A DNA stretch of 64,000 nt from Methanosphaera sp. BMS (GTDB lineage Archaea; Methanobacteriota; Methanobacteria; Methanobacteriales; Methanobacteriaceae), in contig NZ_CP014213.1 of NCBI RefSeq assembly GCF_003268005.1, forward strand, positions 682,001 through 746,000, read 5' to 3'. The notes beneath the pieces are model-generated. The model made no database searches. It was not told the origin of the DNA and worked only from the letters and a program-made list of their open reading frames with translations. The stretch's first letter is position 1, and each line of letters opens with the position of its first letter. This document shows positions 14,901 through 60,932 of the stretch, piece after piece. Position numbers and translations under genes: made by a program.

Positions 14901-17900
14901 TTATTGGTGTAGTTTCCAGTTATGTTGGAATTATTTATGGTTCCTTCTGTTAAAAATACAACACAATAATTTGCAGAGTTATTATAATAATTCCCAGTTA
15001 TGAGGGAATTATTTATGCTTGTAAATTCACTCACGTAGTATACTGCACAGTATTCTGCAGCATTATTACTGTAATCTCCAGATATTATAACGTTAGTCAA
15101 ATTATTATTAAATAAGAATACTCCTGCAGTATCATTTGCCCGGTTATTATTATAATATCCACTTATATTTACATCAGTTAATTCTCCATTAAAGAAGATT
15201 GCTCCGCCACCCTCTTTTGCTGTGTTGTTTGTGTAATTTCCTGTTATATTTACATTGTTTAAATCTCCATAAAATAGGATTGCTCCACCATAATCGTCTG
15301 CTGTGTTGTTTGTGTAATTTCCTGTTATATTTACATTGTTTAATTCTCCATTAAAGAAAATTGCTCCACCGTAACCATTATTTACACTGTTATTTATTAA
15401 AATGGCATTTATATTGGTGTTAGTAACATCTGCATAAAATCCAATTGCACCTGCAAGACCATCAACTACACTATTGTCTATAAAAATGGCATTTATATCT
15501 GAGTTATTAAGTGTTTGATTAAAGAAGATTGCACCGCAGGCAGATTCTTCTTTTCCATTTTTAAATGTTAAGCCTGTGATATTTATTCTTTCTGCGTTAA
15601 CAGTCCAGATCCTACTTACTCCTTGTGCATCAAAGATTACTTCACCAGCATCATAATTAACGAATGTTAAATTCTTATTAATGGTTAAATTTGTATTGTT
15701 TTCTCCAGTGTATGTTCCTGATGCAATATAAATTGTACTATCATCTGGTGCTTTGTTTAATGCTTCTTTTAATGTTTTAAATGCAGTATCTGCTGTTGTT
15801 CCATTACCGCTGGATTCTTTATTTCCGTTTACATACCAAACAATAATTGCCGGATTTACCGTGATGTCAACTGTGGTTGTTGCATTGTTGTATCTATAAT
15901 CACCAGCATAGAAAACAGTAGCAGTAGCATCGAGTGTTAATCCTGTAACAATAATAGTAGCATTACCATTATTAATTTCACCATACCATTTATCACCATC
16001 AATATTGACAGTGACATTTCCTGTAGCATTTTCTAAACCGGTAACAACAACAATAGCATCATCACCAACCATAATAGGATCGACACTAGCACTAATACTT
16101 AAATCCTCTTTAGGCACGGAATTAACAATAATATCGACTGTAGTGATAGCACTAGTATAATTAGCATCACCACTATAGATAACGTTTGCCGTAGTATTTT
16201 CGTCTAATCCCTCAATAATAATGACGGCAGTTGCGTTGTTGATTTTGCCCGTCCAGTTATTATTATCAATAGTAACATTAACATTGCCTGTAGCACATTC
16301 TAAGCCAGTTACAATAACCGTTGCATTTTCACCTTGATGTATTGGTTCTGCACTTGCATTAATGTTTAAGCTTTTAGGATTAACTGTAATAATTACATTT
16401 TCCTCTTTAGGGTTATATAATCCGTCACCTGAATAACTGACATTTAAATCATGACTACCCACTGATAAATTTGAAATAATGACAGTAGCAGCACCATCTA
16501 CAATATCAGAAGAAATATTTCCAATTTCAATATCAGAAGAATTAATTCCAACCGTACCAGTAGCATTATCTGGTGTGAAAATAATAGTTACAGTAGCATT
16601 ATCACCAAAACTAATTTCCGGCACGTTAATATTCATCGTAACATCTTCTTTATAAAAGGAATATGATAATGTTAAAACTTGATAATTAACAGTAGCATTT
16701 ACATTTGTAATGCCGTCCTCAAATTCAATATCTGAGGTAACAACATTATTTCCTATTTTATGATTACTAAGTGTTGCTCCATTATCTGCACTGAATTGTG
16801 CATCATAATTAAATAATTCTCCATCTGATATGAATCCGACAATTAATGTTGGTTGACCGGTTTCATTTAAAGATAATTCAACTGTAACAGGTGCATCATC
16901 TGTATGGCTTTCACTTCCTGTAAAATGATATTCTACAAGCTCATTGGAAAAATCAAAAACGTTTTTTCCATACCAGTTATTATGAATTCTATTATACTTC
17001 CCTTTATTATATATAATGTTTCCTTTGGTATCTGCCCAATTGTCAATAAAAATATTATATTCTAAATACAAAGTAGAAGAAGTGGAATCCAAATAGATTG
17101 CTCCGCCTTCATCACCACAGCGATTATTTTCAAAATAACACTGGGAAAACAAAACATTATTTTCCTTGTTTATATAGATTGCTCCACCATCATCATCGGA
17201 TTTAACTTCATTATTAATGAAAACACCATATTTTACATCAGTGGCGAATTTATTTGTATATATTGCTCCACCATCATGTACCTTAACGTAATTGTCTTTG
17301 AAATATGAAGGTGAATCCACCCAGGTAATAGTGTCTGCATAAATTGCACCACCATAATCACGGGCATAATTACCACTGAAGGTACAATTATCAACTTTAA
17401 CATCACCTTTACTTAGTATAGCACCACCACTTTCACTCTGTCCATCATCTGAGCCATCATCAGCTTTATTATTTCTAAAAGTGGTATTTTTTGCATTGAC
17501 ATTATTTTTGCTGAATATTGCTCCGCCATCAACGTAAGCATGATTATCTGCAAATTCACTATTTTCAATAAATACTGATTTTTTACAATAAATTGCTCCA
17601 CCATCCGTGTATGCATTGTTGGATGTGAAGTTAGTATTATTAATATGTACATCTCCATCGGATTCAATTGCCCCACCACGGAAACGAGCCTGATTATTAT
17701 AAAATGTAGAGCCATTAATTGTAACATCACCTTCAGCTCGTATAGCACCGCCATAATCCTCAACAGCAACTTTATGACTTTCTACTTTATTAGATCTGAA
17801 AGTGGTATTTTTTACATTGACATTATTTTTACTGAATATTGCACCGCCATCAACACACCCCTGATTATTGTAGAAGGAGGAATCCCTAACATCAATAGTA

Positions 17901-18931
17901 CTCTCAACATAAACTGCTCCACCATCATTATCATCTACCTTATTTTCACTAAAAGTAGATGAATATATGGAAGCAGTATTTGCATAAATTGCACCACCAT
18001 AATCATAAGCCTTATTCGAAGTAAAAGTAGAATTATTAACTTCTACATTAGCTTCACTTCGTATGGCACCACCATAACATTGAGAAGATGCACCATTTGC
18101 TTCATTTTCGATGAAACGGGTATTTTTTGATACATTGACATTATTTTTGCTGTATATTGCACCGCCATCAACATTAGCATGATTTTTTTCAAATAGACAA
18201 TTTTCAAGAGTTACAGATTTTTCACAATAAATTGCTCCACCATCATCATCCTCAACATTATTAGATTTAAAAGTAGAATTAATAATAGTTAAATCTCCTG
18301 CGGAGTATATTGCTCCGCCATAGTCCTCTGCCCAATTATTGTTGAAAGTACAGTTTATAATTGTGTATTGAGCAGAACCTTCTATATGAATGGCACCACC
18401 TTTATTATTATAATCGTTATGTCCATTAATTATTATGAGATTTTTCAGGGTTATAGTTCCACTATTTGAATAAAATGCACTGCAACCGCCTTCACCTAAA
18501 CAATCAAGGGTATGTCCCTGACCATCTATAGTTAAATCTTTATCAAGTTGGATTCTAGAACCATAAGCTCCGTTATAATCTCTTGTTAGATTTAAAACAG
18601 AACTTTCAGTTGCATTATCTATCTCAGTTTGAAGGTCATTAAAACTTCCAACATCATTAGCTTTTTTCACACTTGCACTAATATCACGTTTAGTAAGATT
18701 ATTATTTTTAGATATTACTTTTTTAGAATTGTCCTTCTTTAAAACATTATTAGTATCTTTAACTTCACTATTTTCATCATTACTTATATCCACATTATCA
18801 TTATTACTATCAGGTGATATAGAATTTGTTAGCTTAGAACTTGAAACAACACTACTATCACTTGATGCACTGACTGCTCCAATCATAAAAATTGAAAGTA
18901 ATAATATACTCAATATTATCTTTTTCTTCAT
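11951..18931 (-). CDS. Giant adhesin-like protein with beta-helices, Ig repeats and coiled coil
   Basis: About 2326 residues from ATG 18931; a GTG nine bases upstream is a less likely start. Order: signal peptide (1-25, ending VSA); beta-helix block with GGAIY rungs (about 130-620); Ig-like repeats (about 670-950); a second beta-helix opened by VWYVNGNKESSGNGTTADTA (about 1030-1400) with NVNITGNYTNNTA rungs; two BIG2-type domains (near 1520 and 1610, for example NTAVATVDETGEIIGLSQGT); an Ig-like module shared with the gene at 1-3326; a coiled coil of 14-residue units such as TLNNTIKQQENTIN (about 1795-2010); and three Ig-like C-terminal domains ending VLVKK. The coiled coil probably makes a multimeric stalk. 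No pseudomurein-binding repeat is visible. A surface adhesion role is inferred. Confidence 0.9.
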   Translation of the reverse strand: MKKKIILSILLLSIFMIGAVSASSDSSVVSSSKLTNSISPDSNNDNVDISNDENSEVKDTNNVLKKDNSKKVISKNNNLTKRDISASVKKANDVGSFNDLQTEIDNATESSVLNLTRDYNGAYGSRIQLDKDLTIDGQGHTLDCLGEGGCSAFYSNSGTITLKNLIIINGHNDYNNKGGAIHIEGSAQYTIINCTFNNNWAEDYGGAIYSAGDLTIINSTFKSNNVEDDDGGAIYCEKSVTLENCLFEKNHANVDGGAIYSKNNVNVSKNTRFIENEANGASSQCYGGAIRSEANVEVNNSTFTSNKAYDYGGAIYANTASIYSSTFSENKVDDNDGGAVYVESTIDVRDSSFYNNQGCVDGGAIFSKNNVNVKNTTFRSNKVESHKVAVEDYGGAIRAEGDVTINGSTFYNNQARFRGGAIESDGDVHINNTNFTSNNAYTDGGAIYCKKSVFIENSEFADNHAYVDGGAIFSKNNVNAKNTTFRNNKADDGSDDGQSESGGAILSKGDVKVDNCTFSGNYARDYGGAIYADTITWVDSPSYFKDNYVKVHDGGAIYTNKFATDVKYGVFINNEVKSDDDGGAIYINKENNVLFSQCYFENNRCGDEGGAIYLDSTSSTLYLEYNIFIDNWADTKGNIIYNKGKYNRIHNNWYGKNVFDFSNELVEYHFTGSESHTDDAPVTVELSLNETGQPTLIVGFISDGELFNYDAQFSADNGATLSNHKIGNNVVTSDIEFEDGITNVNATVNYQVLTLSYSFYKEDVTMNINVPEISFGDNATVTIIFTPDNATGTVGINSSDIEIGNISSDIVDGAATVIISNLSVGSHDLNVSYSGDGLYNPKEENVIITVNPKSLNINASAEPIHQGENATVIVTGLECATGNVNVTIDNNNWTGKINNATAVIIIEGLDENTTANVIYSGDANYTSAITTVDIIVNSVPKEDLSISASVDPIMVGDDAIVVVTGLENATGNVTVNIDGDKWYGEINNGNATIIVTGLTLDATATVFYAGDYRYNNATTTVDITVNPAIIVWYVNGNKESSGNGTTADTAFKTLKEALNKAPDDSTIYIASGTYTGENNTNLTINKNLTFVNYDAGEVIFDAQGVSRIWTVNAERINITGLTFKNGKEESACGAIFFNQTLNNSDINAIFIDNSVVDGLAGAIGFYADVTNTNINAILINNSVNNGYGGAIFFNGELNNVNITGNYTNNTADDYGGAILFYGDLNNVNITGNYTNNTAKEGGGAIFFNGELTDVNISGYYNNNRANDTAGVFLFNNNLTNVIISGDYSNNAAEYCAVYYVSEFTSINNSLITGNYYNNSANYCVVFLTEGTINNSNITGNYTNNYAKKGINIIGEANNLSMSGNYINNNISNGSVIYIVYCDENSNIHDSIFINNTMDDKLIIEVISGSVLSINNWFGNNASNYNIKPKVSENVTMANWLFLNATTNTTGELTINETSEITFKLYAYNSTSEEINEYDASKMNMQLELSQTHGSLDKTTALINETISYKYEEEGPAIVTGKFKTAIYTIVLAKQATEIINNKPEITINVTKSDTVNAVLNPLEAGNLTYTSSNTAVATVDETGEIIGLSQGTATITVSFEGNDYYAAAASKIIPVTVNLNHASVSVNNNTLDLIIDDTFPLVATTTPEGMDVTYVPDDSGVVSVDDNGVVTALKEGTATITVKVGDNTVYTENSTIVTVKVRKSTIITYNIINNTEGNVQINITVQDDVYKTPITDALINITGAINRTATAGVITDTTLTPGDYTINVEFAETDEYKSSATTIDFTVEIDKDAKIRELEEYITQLINTVNQLNNTIKQQENTINTLNNTIKQQENTINTLNNTIKQQDNTINTLNNTIKTLTTQNQNLTKQNTQLQANITQLQNTIKTLNDTIKQQNNTIKTLTKENQNLNNTIKNLNNTIKQQENTIKTLNDTIKQQNNTIKTLTKENQNLNNTIKQQENTIKTLNDTIKQQNNTIKTLTKENQNLNKTIQNLNNTNKQLQNTIIKQNNTIKELQEIIKQLNKTSTPTPTTTTVSKINGRVGSTIQLKATIKDNNTKAVTSGRVTFKVNGVTLKDEDGNTLYALVNNGTATLNYTVPRSWYKDNTTVEAVYAGNDKYASSRANNTKNNITPGNVKIKIAQLPTHENGDKIQFVITATDEKGQSITGGTVIIKANGVTLKDSNGKALQANVVNGVAIIDYNITLSAREYNLTAVYSYTGYNRIEATGKLNVTKGEAFIRYTPITTKTTTTRITANIVDKNKNNISGTVTVGIKLDGKMITTTTATNGIINVTIPTNITTGAHTIELIAGETGAYKSDRITSVLVKK
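12890..13500 (-). repeat. Coiled-coil coding tandem repeats (42-base units)
   Basis: This stretch of the giant adhesin gene is built from related units encoding 14-residue blocks (two heptads), such as TLNNTIKQQENTIN and TLNDTIKQQNNTIK, interspersed with TLTKENQNLN. Several units are nearly identical in DNA, so length change by slippage or recombination is expected. Confidence 0.8.
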
Positions 18932-19616
18932 TTTAACCACTACTTTTTTTGGAAATTTATTACATGAACTATGTTTATGTTGTTAAGTCTTAATAAATTA
19001 TTCTATTTGTTGCAAATCAATAAAATCTTCCGTTTTGAATTTATAGCCTATTACCATAAGTTTACGTCAAAATATTCATTGAACCAATTTAGATAATAGG
19101 TAGTATCATCCACGATTTCGGCACTGTCCAAAATACAGTCTGACTTCCCATAAATTTAATATTTTTTCAGTAAGTTGTATTACAAGGACTGGCATGATAA
19201 AATCTTTTTTTCCTAAACATACCCTATAATTACATCTGGATCTATTTGTCCTCATTTTTCTATTAACACCCTTATCTGTTATATAATGTTTTTTTTTTAA
19301 TTTATTACCACATGTAACATTGAAAAAATAATTATATACGCTTCGAGTGTTGATTCATTGTTATTTTCTTTATTTTAGTAATAGTTTATATACACTTGTT
19401 TTTAGACTTTTATTCATTCTTCGGGTTTAATGATTTTAGGCTGTTTATACATTTTTCATATAATTTATTATAAGCAGGCTAATCTTATAGTGTGATATAG
19501 TCGAGGTTTACACTATAGATGAGATATGATATTTACTTCATTATACCTGCATATAGCGAAGTCTAAAAAATTAAAAAAATAGTATCTACTAAAATAGTAA
19601 GAGATAACTTGTTGCA
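18932..19616. other. Intergenic region with possible gene vestige
   Basis: It should contain the promoter of the giant adhesin (AATTTATTAAG on the minus strand is a candidate TATA element near 18985-18995). Between about 19050 and 19270 the minus strand shows two overlapping coding-like fragments in different frames, one ending YYLNWFNEYFDVNLW before a stop at 19051-19053. They might be a frameshifted relic, but no family is recognised. The rest is AT-rich and featureless. Confidence 0.35.
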
Positions 19617-19657
19617 GTCGGATAAGTTAGAGAGGTTGCTCTCTCTTCCTCTCCTCA

Positions 19658-19691
19658 GAACCGTACGTGTCACTTTCATAACATACGGCTC
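19658..19691 (-). ncRNA. Group II intron 1 domain V
   Basis: A 34-base hairpin, the standard length for domain V, carrying the AGC catalytic triad and a GAAA-type terminal loop. It differs from the domain V of intron 2 at one position in the upper stem region. Confidence 0.88.
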
Positions 19692-19739
19692 AAGCATATT
19701 AGTTATCTGAAGAAACTAAGTCAAATTAAAAAAATTATT

Positions 19740-21284
19740 TTATATTCCATATAAGCATTGGTAATTATTTTTAAATTTAAATCTTTCAAAGTACTCATTG
19801 AATTCACTTTTATACGGGGTTGCTTTATATTTAATGCACCACGCATACTTAATATGAATCCAACTCATACGTTTAAGTTGATTACCTGTTTCAGGATTAG
19901 TAAACAAATACTTATCTTTTATCGTTTTATCCCTACATGGTTTAAAGTGTTTACCTTTAATCCACTTATGAGACTTCTTAGGATATAATCTCTTAAGAAG
20001 ACGAATAATACGATATATAATAAACCAATCCATCTTTTCAAAGGTTCTTTCTGCAGCTGTCATTCTCCAATAATAAGCAGTACCAATTATAAGATTATTT
20101 AAGGAGTCAATAAAACTTTCTATGTCTCCCCCATAAGCTTTTATAAAGATACGCCGTGCTTTATCTTTGAATGAAACAATACTACTCTTTGACGGTTTTG
20201 TAAGAACCACTTTTCTATTTCTACTGAAATATGATTTAATATTGATTCCTAGAAAATCAAAACCATTATCAATATGAGTAATTCTAGTTTTATCCTCAGC
20301 TAAAGTTAAACCCCTCTTTTCCAAGTAAGAATTTAACAGTTTCGGCACTTTACATGCATCCTCTTTTGTTCTACAAAGTATTACAAAATCATCAGCATAA
20401 CGCACCATAACATACTTAGACACATTACTGTAAGTATACGAGCCATCTTTTCTGCGGATACGAGTGTATTTAATATCTAATGCTTCCTCCATTCCATGCA
20501 ATGCAATGTTAGCAAGAAGCGGAGATATAATACCCCCTTGAGGTGTACCACTATCAGACTTATAAAATACATTATCGTCTAAGTATCCTGCTTTTAACCA
20601 GCGACTAATGGTTTTAGAGGCTGGAAAATACCGTACTTGTTCCATGATATAATCATGGTCAAGAGTATCAAAACAAGATTTAAAATCACCTTCAAATATC
20701 CAAGGACGATTAAATCCACGTACATGACTGTGAATCTTTGCTATAGCATCACTAGCACCTCTACAAGGCCTGAAACCATAACTATTGGCTTCAAAATGAT
20801 GCTCCCAAATAGGTTCCAAGGCAATTTTACATACCATTTGGAACACACGATCACGTATGGTTGGAATACCCAAAGGTCTTAATATTCCATTCTTTTTAGG
20901 AATATAAATCCTACGAACAGGCCGAGGCCTATGTAGATTAATTTTACAATCCTTAAGCTGGTAAAATAGTTTCATACGCTCAGCATTTGTCATGACAATT
21001 TCAGAGTCAACTCCTGCCGTACGTTTACCACCATTTATTTGAGTAACTACTCTTATAGCCCACAATAGTGTTCTATTATCATTTAAAAGTAGTCTACAAT
21101 GACTTCGAACTCTTCGATAGTCACCAGATTCTTCAGCACGAATTATCCGCTGTTGTATCTTATATATGCTTCGACTTACATAGTTCCATTTAATATTGGA
21201 CCATTCACTGTCGAGTTTGTCCAATTCCGTGGACTGACACAAATTAATATTTGCACAGTTTTCTTCATCTGAAATTTGACTCAT
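19740..21284 (-). CDS. ltrA: Group II intron reverse transcriptase/maturase
   Basis: A 514-residue intron-encoded protein. The RT domain (about 85-340) contains RPLGIPTIRDRVFQM, NSYGFRPCRGASDA, FKSCFDTLDHD, GTPQGGIISPLLANIALH and the catalytic MVRYADDFVILC near residue 295. The maturase/X domain follows (about 360-480). No HNH endonuclease signature follows the maturase domain, so target cleavage may rely on reverse splicing and another primer source. It normally binds its own intron RNA, helps it fold and splice, and copies it at new sites. It is clearly homologous to, but well diverged from, the protein at 47061-48623, so the two introns are not a recent duplication. Length and motifs suggest it is intact. 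Confidence 0.95.
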   Translation of the reverse strand: MSQISDEENCANINLCQSTELDKLDSEWSNIKWNYVSRSIYKIQQRIIRAEESGDYRRVRSHCRLLLNDNRTLLWAIRVVTQINGGKRTAGVDSEIVMTNAERMKLFYQLKDCKINLHRPRPVRRIYIPKKNGILRPLGIPTIRDRVFQMVCKIALEPIWEHHFEANSYGFRPCRGASDAIAKIHSHVRGFNRPWIFEGDFKSCFDTLDHDYIMEQVRYFPASKTISRWLKAGYLDDNVFYKSDSGTPQGGIISPLLANIALHGMEEALDIKYTRIRRKDGSYTYSNVSKYVMVRYADDFVILCRTKEDACKVPKLLNSYLEKRGLTLAEDKTRITHIDNGFDFLGINIKSYFSRNRKVVLTKPSKSSIVSFKDKARRIFIKAYGGDIESFIDSLNNLIIGTAYYWRMTAAERTFEKMDWFIIYRIIRLLKRLYPKKSHKWIKGKHFKPCRDKTIKDKYLFTNPETGNQLKRMSWIHIKYAWCIKYKATPYKSEFNEYFERFKFKNNYQCLYGI

Positions 21285-41094: not shown

Positions 41095-41964
41095 TTAGAA
41101 TAATTTTGTCTGTACACTTTTATTGGCTTTCGGAAACTCATGCAAGTACTCAAATATTTCCTTGGGATTATTCATAATTCCGGCATTTCTTGTTTTTTTG
41201 TTGAATATCCTCATAAGATTTTTATTATTGGGACTTACTATTCCATAACTATTAGCAAATTCCTTTATGTAACGACTTTTAAGACCGGGAAAATGTTCAT
41301 CAAGTCTTTTATAGTAGTATTCACGATTTCCATCACGTAGAGTCATGCCCATACCGAAGCATATGATACCCTTAACCTCCAAGTCGATGCATGCATCCAA
41401 GAGCCCATCAATATTCTCATATGTATCCGTTATATATGGAAGTATCGGCGTCATCCATACAACGATAGGTATGTTATTTTCCTGAAACTTTCTTAATACT
41501 TCTATCCGTCTAGTTGTCGGACATACATTCGGCTCTATTTTCTTACTGATATCATCATCAATACACGTTAGAGTCATCTGCACTACAAACTTTGATTTTT
41601 CATTGATTTTTTTAATCAAATCCATGTCACGCAATATCAAGTCGGACTTTGTTATGCATGTAAATCCATGAGAGTATATATATGCCAACTTCATGGCTTC
41701 TCTAGTGTAGTTGAGCTTTTCTTCCAATGGTATATACGGATCAGTCATGGAGCCCAAGCCAATCATAACCCTTTCCTTCTTGTTTTTCAATGCTTTTTTG
41801 AGCAATTCAAGTGAATTCTTTTTAACCTCTATATCATTAAAGCTATGATTCATGTTATAGACATCACTTCTTGAATCACAATAAATACAGTCATGACTAC
41901 AGCCACGATAAAGATTCATACCATTGTTTTTTGACAATATAGACTTAACACTTACATAATGCAT
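41095..41964 (-). CDS. Radical SAM protein, SPL/Rv2578c type
   Basis: The protein has about 289 residues from ATG 41964 (GGTTGAT upstream; GTG 41973 less likely). The cluster motif is MNLYRGCSHDCIYCDSRSDV (C-x3-C-x2-C). A TIM-barrel pattern follows (MIGLGSMTDPYIPLEEKLNY, CITKSDLILRDMDL, VVWMTPILPYITDTYENI). This matches the spore-photoproduct-lyase-like group of radical SAM proteins, most of unknown substrate. It ends with KSVQTKLF. Confidence 0.88.
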   Translation of the reverse strand: MHYVSVKSILSKNNGMNLYRGCSHDCIYCDSRSDVYNMNHSFNDIEVKKNSLELLKKALKNKKERVMIGLGSMTDPYIPLEEKLNYTREAMKLAYIYSHGFTCITKSDLILRDMDLIKKINEKSKFVVQMTLTCIDDDISKKIEPNVCPTTRRIEVLRKFQENNIPIVVWMTPILPYITDTYENIDGLLDACIDLEVKGIICFGMGMTLRDGNREYYYKRLDEHFPGLKSRYIKEFANSYGIVSPNNKNLMRIFNKKTRNAGIMNNPKEIFEYLHEFPKANKSVQTKLF

Positions 41965-46939: not shown

Positions 46940-46980
46940 GTCGGATAAGTCGGAAAGATTACTCTCGCCTTCTCTCCTCA

Positions 46981-47014
46981 GAACCGTACGTGTCACTTTC
47001 ATGACATACGGCTC
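46981..47014 (-). ncRNA. Group II intron 2 domain V
   Basis: A 34-base hairpin with the AGC triad (GAGCCGTATG ... CGTACGGTTC), nearly identical to domain V of intron 1. The following domain VI stem precedes the 3' splice site. Confidence 0.9.
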
Positions 47015-47060
47015 AAGCATATTTTAACCCAAATTGATTATTTTATATCTCCGAGATGGA

Positions 47061-48623
47061 TTAATATTCTCTTTTCTTGTATAGGCATTCAAATGGTGTT
47101 TTCTTGTATGCTTTCTTTATGTATCCTGTATATTCAGGGTCATAAGGGTTGCAGTTATATTTAATTGTTTGTGCATAATGTATGTTGGTCCAACTCATTT
47201 TGACAAGTTGTTCTGATGGTTCTTTGGGGTTAGTAAGTATATAATTATCCTCACTTTTATGAGTATAATCTTCTTTGAAGTACTTATTTCTAATCCAAGT
47301 CCACGACTTATTAGGATGTTGTCTGAGTAGATATCTCCTAGTAAGTGTCCATACATATGCATCAATATCATTGAAAGTTGATTTGGATGCACTTTGTTTC
47401 CAATAGTTGGCAGTGCCTATTATTATGTTGTTGGCATCGTATATTAACTTTCCAATATTGTCACTCCTATATTTTAGGAATGTTGCTTTGAGTTTTGCCT
47501 TGAGCCTTTTAACTCTGTCTTTTGAGGGTCTGGTGATTACTTTAAGTCCTTGGTTTGTCTGATAACTTCTTATATTGAATCCGAGAAAATCGAATCCATT
47601 ATTAAGTGGTGTTATCATTGTTTTATCGGGTGCTAGTGTTAGTCCACGCTCTGATAAGTAAGGTTCTAACAATGGGTAAATATTTTCTGCATCTTCTTTT
47701 GTTTTACAGAGTATTACAAAATCATCTGCATAACGTACCATTGCATATCGAGATAAGTTAACATAATTAGTTGAATACTGATTATGTCGTCTTTTCGTGT
47801 ATTCTATACCGAGTGCTTCATCCAGTCCAGTTAGGGCAACATTAGCCAATATAGGTGAAACTATTCCACCTTGTGGTGTGCCTTCATCAGTTAGATTAAG
47901 CATATTGTTGTATAGATATCCTGCCTTAAGCCACTTTTGTATTAATTTCTTGGCTGGAAAGTTTCCCAGTTGTTTTAATATCCAATCGTGGTTTAATGTA
48001 TCAAAGCATGATTTGAAGTCACCTTCAAATATCCAAGGTCTGTTTCCTCTCCTTGCGTATCTGTGTATCTTTGCTAGTGCATTTCCTGCACTTCGCATTG
48101 GTCTAAAACCATAACTACATGGTTCAAAACCCACTTCTACACGAGGTTCAAGAGCAAGACTAGCAACCATTTGATATACTCGATCAGTAATGGTCGGTAT
48201 ACCAAGTGGTCGCTTTTTACCATTTGTTTTATCAATATAAACCCTACGAACAGGTAGAGGTTCATACTGATTAATGCCATGAGATTTGAGATTATAGAAT
48301 AATGCCATGCGTTCAGGGTGTGATTTAAGAATCATCCCATCAATGCCAGGAGTTTTATAACCCCTGTTTAGCATAGTAACTCTTCTTATACTGTAAAGAA
48401 GTGTAGAATCCTTAGATAATAGGATTCTTTGTAAGTTACGGGCTTTTCTATAGTCTCCGTCAATTTCGGCACGAGCTATATCACATTGTAATTTGTAGAT
48501 GCTCCGTTCAAGTTTTTTCCATGGTATTGAAGTCCATTGGTCAGTGTAAACGGACTTATTGTGCTTAGCATCCTCCAAAATAATTCTATTTTGGCTCTTA
48601 TCTGCATAAACATTCTTCGACAT
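47061..48623 (-). CDS. ltrA: Group II intron reverse transcriptase/maturase
   Basis: A 520-residue intron-encoded protein. RT motifs: RPLGIPTITDRVYQM, CSYGFRPMRSAGNALAKIHR, FKSCFDTLNHDWI, GTPQGGIVSPILANVALTGL and MVRYADDFVILC (about residue 295). The maturase domain (about 365-490) contains DFLGFNIRSYQ and NIIIGTANYWKQSASKSTF. No HNH endonuclease motif follows. It should bind and splice the surrounding intron RNA and thereby enable expression of the interrupted adhesin. It resembles the 19740-21284 protein along its whole length but differs at many positions. The frame is intact. Confidence 0.95.
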   Translation of the reverse strand: MSKNVYADKSQNRIILEDAKHNKSVYTDQWTSIPWKKLERSIYKLQCDIARAEIDGDYRKARNLQRILLSKDSTLLYSIRRVTMLNRGYKTPGIDGMILKSHPERMALFYNLKSHGINQYEPLPVRRVYIDKTNGKKRPLGIPTITDRVYQMVASLALEPRVEVGFEPCSYGFRPMRSAGNALAKIHRYARRGNRPWIFEGDFKSCFDTLNHDWILKQLGNFPAKKLIQKWLKAGYLYNNMLNLTDEGTPQGGIVSPILANVALTGLDEALGIEYTKRRHNQYSTNYVNLSRYAMVRYADDFVILCKTKEDAENIYPLLEPYLSERGLTLAPDKTMITPLNNGFDFLGFNIRSYQTNQGLKVITRPSKDRVKRLKAKLKATFLKYRSDNIGKLIYDANNIIIGTANYWKQSASKSTFNDIDAYVWTLTRRYLLRQHPNKSWTWIRNKYFKEDYTHKSEDNYILTNPKEPSEQLVKMSWTNIHYAQTIKYNCNPYDPEYTGYIKKAYKKTPFECLYKKREY

Positions 48624-57605: not shown

Positions 57606-58367
57606 ATGGATGTGATAATAGATAAGTTAAGACAAATAGAAGTTGATGAAGACATTACAATACTATATGCAGCCGAAGCGGGAAGTCGTGCATATGGTCA
57701 TTATAATGAAAAATCAGATTATGACATTAGATTTATCTATAAACACAACAATTTAAGCGATTACCTCACAATTGATAAAAAACGTGACGTTTACGAGTTT
57801 GATGATGGAGAATATGATATTGTAGGATGGGATATTAAGAAAGCATTGAATCTTCATTATAAAAGCAATCCCAATCTACGTGAATGGTTAATATCACCAG
57901 TTAAGTATGTTCCAATGGAGAAAGATATCTTTAAAGACCTGCCAGATTTTGATAAAATAGTGCTTAAACGCTATTATTACGAGCTTGCCAGGCGTCACTT
58001 CAATAAATATATCAATCAAAATGATGAAAGAAGCCCTACGTTCTATAAGAAACTAGTCCACACGTGTCGATATATACTGGCATGGATGTTACTTGATGAA
58101 GATGAGTATCCATCAATGCGTATTGAAAAACTGATAGAGGACAATAATCTTGACAAAAGTCTGCTTGATAAACTAGTTAAGCTTAAGAAGTGCATAATTA
58201 CCCAAAATACTAGTTTCATAGGTGATAATGAGGCATATTTTCTCATAGAATGGGTTTCATTCTATGTGGAGTATATGAAAGAGGACTCATATGATAAAAA
58301 GATTATAAAGGATATTGAAGTGTATAATGAAAGGTTCAGGGATATAATACTGTGCAATGACTTCTAG
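57606..58367 (+). CDS. Predicted nucleotidyltransferase (COG3541 type)
   Basis: A 253-residue protein. The nucleotidyltransferase signature AEAGSRAYGHYNEKSDYDIR (Gly-Ser then Asp-x-Asp) lies at residues 22-41, followed by KRDVYEFDDGEYDIVGWDI. A helical C-terminal half contains RYILAWMLLDEDEYPSMRIE. This fits the YcgL/COG3541 group of predicted nucleotidyltransferases, whose targets are unknown. AGGAGGTATAAACTA precedes ATG 57606. The last four bases overlap the end of the acetyltransferase gene on the other strand. Confidence 0.85.
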   Translation: MDVIIDKLRQIEVDEDITILYAAEAGSRAYGHYNEKSDYDIRFIYKHNNLSDYLTIDKKRDVYEFDDGEYDIVGWDIKKALNLHYKSNPNLREWLISPVKYVPMEKDIFKDLPDFDKIVLKRYYYELARRHFNKYINQNDERSPTFYKKLVHTCRYILAWMLLDEDEYPSMRIEKLIEDNNLDKSLLDKLVKLKKCIITQNTSFIGDNEAYFLIEWVSFYVEYMKEDSYDKKIIKDIEVYNERFRDIILCNDF

Positions 58368-58933
58368 TCATCCACATCATTTTCCAACTTGCGTATTACC
58401 CTTGCAGGTACACCTACCGCCAGGCTATTTGAAGGTATATCCTTGTTGACTACGGCACCAGCAGCTACTACCACATTGTCACCGATTGTAACGCCGGGCA
58501 GTATAGTAACGTTGGCACCTATCCAGACATCACTTCCTATATGTACCTCATCCGTTATGCTGATATGATTACGGCGGCCCTGTGGATTTAATGGATGACC
58601 AACGCTTGTAATGACAGTACCGGGGCCAATCATCACATCATCCCCTATATAGATCTTGTTTATGTCAAGTATGGTTAGGTTATGATTTCCTGTGAAATTG
58701 TCTCCGATAAATATGTTCTTTCCATTGTCACAGTGAAAGTAGCGTGCTATCCATACATTTTCACCTACACTGCCCAGCATATTCTTTAACTGTTCATACT
58801 GTTTTTCATAATCTGTCGGATCTATTGAATTGAATTTATCACATTGTATTAGTGCATTTGTCTTTAAGGCTATGATTTCCTCATCGGCATAGCAGTGATC
58901 CATTCCTTTCATATATTTTTCCAGTTCACTCAT
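58364..58933 (-). CDS. Maltose/galactoside O-acetyltransferase family protein
   Basis: A protein of about 189 residues from ATG 58933 (GGGGG upstream; TTG just before is an alternative). It has left-handed beta-helix hexapeptide repeats (for example NITDEVHIGS region to VTILPGVTIGDNVVVAAGAVV). The catalytic His is in TVITSVGHPLNPQGRR, and the N-terminal YADEEIIALKTNALIQCDKF is typical for LacA/Maa. These trimeric enzymes use acetyl-CoA to acetylate sugars or nodulation-type oligosaccharides. The donor/acceptor pair cannot be decided. It converges with and overlaps the nucleotidyltransferase gene by four bases. Confidence 0.9.
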   Translation of the reverse strand: MSELEKYMKGMDHCYADEEIIALKTNALIQCDKFNSIDPTDYEKQYEQLKNMLGSVGENVWIARYFHCDNGKNIFIGDNFTGNHNLTILDINKIYIGDDVMIGPGTVITSVGHPLNPQGRRNHISITDEVHIGSDVWIGANVTILPGVTIGDNVVVAAGAVVNKDIPSNSLAVGVPARVIRKLENDVDD

Positions 58934-59098
58934 CAATATAAATAACCCCCTGGTAAAGCTTTAATCATATTGTATTATACTATGTCATCACTGATATATA
59001 TTGATAGGCAATTGTTCCATTGAAAACCATATTATTATACAACGTTCCATTAATCAACAGAAACTTCAAATAATTCCATTAGATTAATGTATATATAA

Positions 59099-59397
59099 AA
59101 TGAAAAAAATAAAAAAACCAAAAACGTATATACACACAAACCAAAAACAACCGTACATACAAAAACAAAAAAAATAAAAAAACCAAAAACGTATATACAC
59201 ACAAACCAAAAACAACCGTACATACAAAAACAAAAAAAAATAAAAAAACCAAAAACGTATATACACACAAACCAAAAACAACCGTACATACAAAAACAAA
59301 AAAAATAAAAAAACCAAAAACGTATATACACACAAACCAAAAACAACCGTACATACAAAAACAAAAAAAAATAAAAAAACCAAAAACGTATATACAA
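59099..59397. repeat. Iteron-like tandem repeat array, 65/66-base units
   Basis: Four full units and a partial fifth, with periods of 65, 66, 65 and 66 bases; the one-base differences fall in an A run. Each full unit contains two copies of the nonamer CGTAYATAC (CGTATATAC and CGTACATAC, 27 bases apart), at 59125, 59152, 59190, 59217, 59256, 59283, 59321, 59348 and 59387. Long A runs in between should bend the DNA. Related half-copies (TGTACATAC, TGTATGTAC) occur near 59455 and 59500. The array lies between an acetyltransferase gene and the biotin synthase gene. No spacers exist, so this is not CRISPR. The regular double motif suggests a protein binding array. Confidence 0.85.
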
Positions 59398-59559
59398 AAC
59401 CCAAAAAACTAAAAAACCCTTAACTTATAAAAAATTATATAATCCAAAAAAAATCATGTACATACAAAAAGCATAAATAACATTAATCAAAAATGTATGT
59501 ACATTAATTTAAATAAAATATTTTAAGGGAGTATGACTCGGATTCAATTAAATAAATCA

Positions 59560-60531
59560 TTATATATTATTTTCACTTATTTTATATCCCAGCTCTTTAA
59601 TCATCTTTATGTCACTTTCATAGCTTGGACCGCTCGTTGTCAGCATGTTACCAAGAATTGCTGCATTTGATCCAGACCGGAATGCCTTTCGACCGTTATC
59701 CTCTAGTAGCAATCGTCCACCGGCTAATCTGATATATGCTTGGGGATTTATGAATCGGTATATGGCTATGATTCTACATGTCTCTTCATTGGACAGAACT
59801 GTATTATTTTCTAGGGGCGTGTTTTTGATGGGATTTAATATGTTTATTGGTATTGACTGTACGTTAAGTCTTCTTAGCTGTAGTGCCAAGTCTATTCTAT
59901 CCTTCCATGATTCGCCTATGCCAAATATTCCACCGCTGCATATTTTCATGTGCGAGTTGTCTATGTGTTTAATGGTATCGAGCTTATCCTGATATGTGTG
60001 GGTTGAACATACACTTGCAAAGTATGTCTTGGATGTTTCAAGATTATTGTGGATTCTGTCAACTCCCGCATCCTTGAGTTTCTGTACCTGCAACTTATTT
60101 AACTTTCCAAGTGATACGCATAAATAAATGTCTGAGTGCTTATTTTTAATGCCAGTTATCACTTCAGCTATACGTTTAAATTCATCATCATTTAATCTTG
60201 GCCCACTTGATACATAAGAAATTCTTTTTAAACCCTGACCATATACATCCAGTGTTTGTTTTTTTAATTTTTCATTCGAAAGTAAGGGATATTGTGTAAT
60301 ATGCGTATCATAATATGCTGATTGGGCACAGAATTTACAATCCTCACTGCAGTTGCCGCTCTTTACGTTGATTATCGTACATACATCAAAGTTATCCTGG
60401 CAGAAATGCCGACGTAATCTATCCGCATGACAAGACAGCCTGTTAATCGGCACATCCAAAAGTTCAAGCATGTCATTTTTTGATGGTGTATATCCATCCA
60501 TAACTTTTTTGCTAAGTTCTTCAACAATCAT
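59560..60531 (-). CDS. bioB: Biotin synthase
   Basis: A protein of about 323 residues from ATG 60531, which gives MIVEELSKKVMDGYTPSKND as in the family; an ATG nine bases upstream is an alternative. The radical SAM motif is SGNCSEDCKFCAQSAYY (C61, C65, C68). The 2Fe-2S ligands and core are visible as KICSGGIFGIGESWKDRIDL and IPINILNPIKNTPLEN, and AYIRLAGGRLLLEDNGRKAF is the C-terminal arginine region. BioB inserts sulfur into dethiobiotin. Other bio genes are not in the window. Confidence 0.93.
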   Translation of the reverse strand: MIVEELSKKVMDGYTPSKNDMLELLDVPINRLSCHADRLRRHFCQDNFDVCTIINVKSGNCSEDCKFCAQSAYYDTHITQYPLLSNEKLKKQTLDVYGQGLKRISYVSSGPRLNDDEFKRIAEVITGIKNKHSDIYLCVSLGKLNKLQVQKLKDAGVDRIHNNLETSKTYFASVCSTHTYQDKLDTIKHIDNSHMKICSGGIFGIGESWKDRIDLALQLRRLNVQSIPINILNPIKNTPLENNTVLSNEETCRIIAIYRFINPQAYIRLAGGRLLLEDNGRKAFRSGSNAAILGNMLTTSGPSYESDIKMIKELGYKISENNI

Positions 60532-60932
60532 ACAATCCATCCATTATAATAAATATTTGTAGGATATAATATTAAGTATTTTAGAAAAAAATGATAAATG
60601 TATCAAAGTATTTACGATAATTTTAGACATACATTTCAAGTGTATTACATTACCTTAAAAATGGGTCCCTTCAGTAATAACTCATTTGCATAGGACAGGG
60701 AATTGATGAAATCATATTAGGACATGATAAATTTAACCTTCTCATCAATAAATAACCCATTGGCATATCAGTTGAGTCTTTTAGCTATTGATTAAATCAT
60801 TAATATTGATTTATCCGTATATCAATCATTTTTTTATATATTTGATTAATAAAAATGTGTATTTATGAAAAAATGGTGGTTAAATTTATTCAACTATCTG
60901 ACGTTAAAAAAAAAGTGTTGGATAGGGTTATC
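60532..60932. other. Intergenic region
   Basis: About 400 AT-rich bases upstream of bioB and downstream of the glyoxalase gene. It should carry the bioB promoter. No gene or RNA was recognised. Confidence 0.45.

Follow-up and report, generated by a model that had tools for sequence, protein, structure and literature searches.

A tandem array of palindromic sites in Methanosphaera sp. BMS, possibly an orphan member of a family of protein-binding arrays

Between two ordinary genes of the gut methane-producing archaeon Methanosphaera sp. BMS (genome G000), at ~741 kb on its contig, lies a tandem array of palindromic sites. We tentatively read it as a protein-binding array, an orphan and tandem-expanded member of an iteron- or centromere-like accessory family of Methanosphaera, and we rate the chance that this reading is correct as slightly short of even. 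The array was found in the 64,000-nucleotide stretch of DNA analyzed here (the window; positions 682,001 to 746,000 of NZ_CP014213.1).

The array spans 59103..59407 (no strand; repeat family D1) and consists of 4.7 copies of a 65/66-bp unit, for which TRF gave 97% matches and a score of 575. TRF reported a period of 65 together with a 131-bp higher-order unit, which arises because every second 65-bp unit carries one extra A. Nine palindrome-core sites, CGTATATACA or CGTACATACA, occupy 59125..59396 (no strand) and lie 27 and 38/39 bp apart from start to start. The first-pass annotation had described nine copies of the nonamer CGTAYATAC in 65/66-base units at these spacings, and both the nonamer positions and TRF bear it out: copies start at 59125, 59152, 59190, 59217, 59256, 59283, 59321, 59348 and 59387, with successive spacings of 27, 38, 27, 39, 27, 38, 27 and 39. 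CGTAYATAC occurs 11 times in the window, compared to a shuffle mean of 0.72 and a shuffle maximum of 3, and the two remaining matches, at 41730 and 60376, are solitary. The genome-wide search for clusters that the annotation had proposed yielded 30 occurrences in the single 2,868,093-bp contig, with the window array as the sole cluster. The next-best genomic match to the array DNA (~430 kb) was rejected as a second array, being instead a 21-bp-multiple repeat region that resembles the repeats encoding coiled coils in the window. The view that the array itself has no coding role also held, as the unit length is not a multiple of three and the reading frame therefore shifts from copy to copy. 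No Rfam match was found at the array and no tRNA in the window. The A runs had been expected to bend the DNA, which a simple wedge model did not support (array mean 0.54 vs window mean 0.53).

The nonamer belongs to a 10-bp palindrome, TGTANNTACA, whose first T is a C in the tandem units, and the window sites mostly take the form CGTAYATACA. Half-copies had been reported to continue downstream; they do, and two of them are complete palindromes outside the tandem unit, a perfect site TGTACATACA at 59457..59466 and, 37 bp from it, a perfect site TGTATGTACA at 59494..59503. On the other side, a one-mismatch site, TGTATATATA at 59088..59097, lies 37 bp ahead of the first array site (none of the three is stranded). 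Two sites in the 164-bp right flank arose in 0 of 20,000 trials under a Markov model of local intergenic DNA. Pairs of window sites with CA/TG and TA centers stand 37-39 bp apart, and the window spacing of 27 exceeds 17 by roughly one helical turn. Three TTCCATT repeats, 29-30 bp apart and a possible second site type, lie at 59015..59080 (starts 59015, 59045 and 59074; no strand), between the array and the adjacent acetyltransferase gene.

Because the window sites are near-identical tandem copies, conservation within this array alone is uninformative, and the evidence for constraint comes from related genomes. The arrays of three relatives hold 74 sites over 4.3 kb (G010), 48 sites (G017), and 34 and 22 sites (two contigs of G009). 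Of the gaps in these arrays, 38 of 73, 15 of 47, 9 of 33 and 11 of 21 measure 37-40 bp, compared to random means of 2.6, 1.5, 0.8 and 0.8, a 10- to 15-fold excess; three of the four arrays also have a clear surplus of 16-19 bp gaps. The relatives have four pairs with CA/TG and TA centers, the type seen in the window, and in all four pairs the sites are 37 or 38 bp apart. In two non-tandem blocks of G017, sites are 0.94 and 0.88 identical and linkers 0.40 and 0.43 (composition expectation 0.36 and 0.42), and in one on G009 contig C66 the values are 0.93 and 0.35 (expectation 0.35). Linkers are more alike in G010 and on G009 contig C177 (0.53-0.55 vs 0.39-0.44 expected), a likeness that tandem copying would produce. 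Constraint on the sites against drift in the linkers is good evidence that the arrays of the relatives are protein-binding arrays. Evenly spaced palindromes kept constant between free linkers are the trace expected of a cooperative, dimeric DNA-binding protein. The large G010 array also contains an inserted ORF that looks transposase-like by eye (L093:10052-11443).

The window array sits downstream of the minus-strand gene bioB (biotin synthase, 59560..60540; PF06968, 5e-26; PF04055, 1e-18), which ends just past it, and ~150 bp upstream of a minus-strand gene for a hexapeptide acetyltransferase of the maltose acetyltransferase type (58364..58936; PF00132, PF12464). A position downstream of bioB is a weak one for the suggested multi-copy regulator of bioB; among bioB-carrying relatives, arrays occur in G010 and G017 alone, at loci other than bioB. 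Elsewhere in the window lie genes for metabolism and transport and for adhesin-like proteins, as well as two group II introns that carry reverse-transcriptase/maturase genes (19617-21284 and 46940-48623; Rfam RF00029; Pfam RVT_1 and GIIM). Pfam searches of 35 of the 41 window ORFs of at least 150 aa found no ParA, Rep, primase, integrase or histone; the other six are four giant ORFs, mostly adhesin-like (one was read), and two antisense to one of these. No gene recognized as encoding a binding protein neighbors the array in the window. The closest histone gene of this genome (756,049-756,246) lies ~14.5 kb to the right, a distance with a chance of ~1 in 10, as estimated from 11 histone matches.

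Gene order around the window array is the same in genome G005 (aldo/keto reductase, RlaP-type nucleotidyltransferase, acetyltransferase, bioB), with flanks at 75-76% DNA identity. The acetyltransferase-bioB interval there has no array and holds a 165-aa ORF instead; G005 is 77% complete, but its contig covers the interval. Absence from close relatives had been named as a refutation, and this applies in part: the array is missing from the orthologous locus of G005, yet three other species have arrays of this kind at other loci. Within the genus, three sites with 10-40 bp gaps occur in 4 of 20 genomes (reversed pattern, 0). Across the family, three sites with 5-35 bp gaps occur in 7 of 138 genomes, and only the same four have more than one match (7 in G000, 35 in G009, 91 in G010 and 40 in G017; one apiece in the other three); the reversed control pattern gave one match apiece in 7 of the 138. 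The four array-bearing genomes are large Methanosphaera, listed at 2.5-2.9 Mb, and the remaining 16 of the genus are listed at 1.2-2.1 Mb. A search of an 84,980-species collection for palindromes in the 39/17 spacing grammar returned 10 records, three of them Methanosphaera (11, 6 and 2 matches) and one an unrelated bacterium with 5 matches. Matches to the array DNA itself were found in 19 of the 20 genus genomes, mostly weak, and A/C-rich filler of similar composition is common. In viral contigs, pattern matches among those listed were scattered and mostly at single places. None of the titles and abstracts in the literature covered, mostly from outside subscription journals, described such arrays, whether for Methanosphaera or for the sequence TGTATATACA.

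In the relatives, an archaeal histone gene lies beyond each of the four arrays, at 180, 190, 246 and ~1,055 bp (PF00808, 1e-21, for the one scanned). The density of TGT-N4-ACA is 13-31 per kb at these array loci and at most 3 per kb at 20 other histone loci without an array (10 in G000, 5 in G016 and 5 in G010, the last two genomes covered in part). The 756-kb histone locus of G000 falls in between at 5 per kb, and its gene is the best match (92%) of the histone beside the G009 C66 array. For M. stadtmanae, seven histone paralogues are reported (PMC7776873). Two further histone loci are flanked by a different palindrome array, TGT-N3-ACA (mostly TGTAGCACA), at 17-18 per kb: G010:C2 (L298:12500-13340 and 15430-16900) and G009:C151 (L352). 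At L096:9196-9480 we observed five copies of TGTTCCCACA and one of TGTACCCACA, placed between a TGTACATACA block and the histone gene, and a few degenerate copies stand ahead of the matching histone gene in G000 (L258:14479-14663). bioB is close to a histone gene in several small Methanosphaera genomes (G007, G008, G019 and G014; L342, L343, L344 and L346). The idea that the window array replaced a former histone gene, drawn from this synteny, finds no support in the intervening genes or in the gene order of G005.

Other companions of the relatives' arrays vary. On G009 contig C177 (L097:5917-8745) an AbrB-like ORF and a divergent priL-priS pair adjoin the array and histone gene, and at G010:C2 the histone has a similar primase pair (recognized by eye) and an AbrB-like homologue a few kb away. 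The arrays of G009 C66 and G017 lie on either side of a 198-aa coiled-coil protein (66% identity between the two genomes), with three further conserved small or coiled-coil proteins upstream. No homologues of the 198-aa protein or of two AbrB-like proteins were found in G000, and a 458-aa coiled-coil family gave only weak matches there, at three distant loci. Searches of 72,556 plasmid records with the 198-aa protein and a 193-aa protein from beside the relatives' arrays found no homologues. Ribbon-helix-helix and AbrB folds, suggested by eye, were not confirmed by structure models, with library matches weak or absent: the 198-aa protein was modeled as a long coiled coil whose N-terminus is poorly predicted, and the model of a 133-aa protein has a mean pLDDT of 48. 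At L298:18125-18718, right before a coiled-coil gene of the 458-aa family (18870-19844), there are ~25 direct 11-bp repeats (ATCTTACC plus 3 bases) that look like classical one-turn iterons.

Slippage and unequal exchange could also have built a neutral minisatellite from an A/C-rich intergenic stretch that held two palindromes by chance. The near-identity of the copies, the empty orthologous locus of G005 and the abundance of A/C-rich filler across the genus all fit such an origin. It nonetheless seems doubtful to us, as two perfect palindromes and one near-perfect one outside the unit keep the 37-bp spacing, and palindrome and spacing recur, clearly constrained, in three other species. Palindromic 10-mers are typical operators, and a regulator bound to them might control the acetyltransferase gene, upstream of whose start the array lies with the TTCCATT repeats in between, or the 3' end of the bioB transcript. 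We regard a multi-copy operator as unlikely, since G005 has no array in the same interval and the relatives' arrays lie beside quite different genes and reach 74 sites, far beyond the needs of an operator. Archaeal RNA polymerase stops at U-tracts, and minus-strand bioB leads into the array's T-rich strand, where each unit carries T7-T9 runs; a tandem terminator for bioB would leave the palindromes and their spacing unexplained, and some units of the G010 array have no such T-runs, which makes this account very improbable.

The first-pass annotation had compared the spacing pattern with binding arrays for replication or partition proteins and had proposed checking GC skew and the position of orc1/cdc6. 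G000 carries two orc1/cdc6 genes, at 1,290 and 2,027 kb, which are ~550 kb and 1.29 Mb from the array, and cumulative GC skew has minima near both, with nothing comparable at the array (700 kb of the genome examined). Direct repeats within A-rich DNA would suit a chromosomal replication origin; given the distance of both genes, skew turns at their loci and none at the array, and the lack of arrays in most of the genus, we reject this possibility with near certainty. The conservation of palindrome and spacing in relatives supports the comparison in part, as regards a regularly spaced protein-binding array, and a partition or accessory-replicon role is possible on indirect grounds. The G010 array lies 24 kb from the second orc1/cdc6 gene, where skew turns too; because of this nearness and skew turn, the G010 array may be linked to that origin.

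Several known systems share features with the array. Archaeal origin recognition boxes bound by Orc1/Cdc6 are repeated sites in A+T-rich intergenic DNA, a setting they have in common with the array, which differs in having no nearby orc1/cdc6 and no skew turn. Plasmid iterons and centromere arrays, such as those of ParR/parC, StbA and pSK1 Par, are bound by small DNA-binding proteins. They too are regular arrays of short sites, and the arrays of two relatives surround genes for small coiled-coil proteins; candidate binder genes were found only beside arrays of G009 and G017. The Methanosphaera palindromes stand at 39/17 or 38/27 bp rather than as close direct repeats, and no NTPase or Rep was found at the array. 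PMC12284271 describes SegB sites of the Sulfolobales SegAB system as 13-bp TCTAGASTCTAGA, also dispersed over the chromosome, mostly intragenic, and located beside the ParA-type gene segA. The two have in common that palindromic sites cluster in an archaeal genome, recognized in the SegB case by a dedicated DNA-binding protein (PMC12284271) and in the array by a putative one. The array differs in its 10-bp sites, which are TGTANNTACA and not TCTAGASTCTAGA, and in its single dense intergenic cluster, with no segA (ParA-type ATPase) recognized among the 35 of 41 window ORFs of at least 150 aa that were searched.

Returning to the protein-binding reading, the palindrome TGTANNTACA would be a natural target for a dimeric DNA-binding protein, and repeated site pairs 37-40 bp apart would let several dimers bind cooperatively and form a nucleoprotein complex. 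Such a complex could work in the manner of iterons or of a centromere-like array, as part of an accessory module for replication or partition in large-genome Methanosphaera; the relatives' arrays lie beside a histone gene, and some also beside a primase pair and small and coiled-coil proteins, of which the latter may bind DNA. The occurrence of one or two dense clusters per genome, in a few large genomes, at places that change between species and in the company of primase and histone genes, suggests accessory DNA, and from it we infer a role for such arrays in replication or partition rather than in ordinary gene control. Of all these arrays, that of the window is the smallest in size and alone in lacking companion genes. 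It probably derives from accessory DNA and would be an orphan that tandem duplication expanded; any protein that binds it would be encoded at another locus. It may still function as an orphan, serve as an operator or be a relic. A more speculative scheme, which we think improbable, is that large-genome Methanosphaera carry accessory modules in which a dedicated histone gene is combined with a primase pair or small DNA-binding proteins and with the module's own TGT-N3-ACA or TGT-N4-ACA array. Linked to histones and resembling a centromere or an origin, such a system would differ from those known in archaea, and the window array would be a stripped-down, still functional docking site of it.

To our knowledge, DNA separation and control are poorly understood in most methanogens. 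A precise site and spacing grammar, limited to a few Methanosphaera and tied in the relatives to particular histone genes, provides a concrete handle on these processes: the 65-bp unit can be used as bait for the binding protein, and the link to histones is directly testable.
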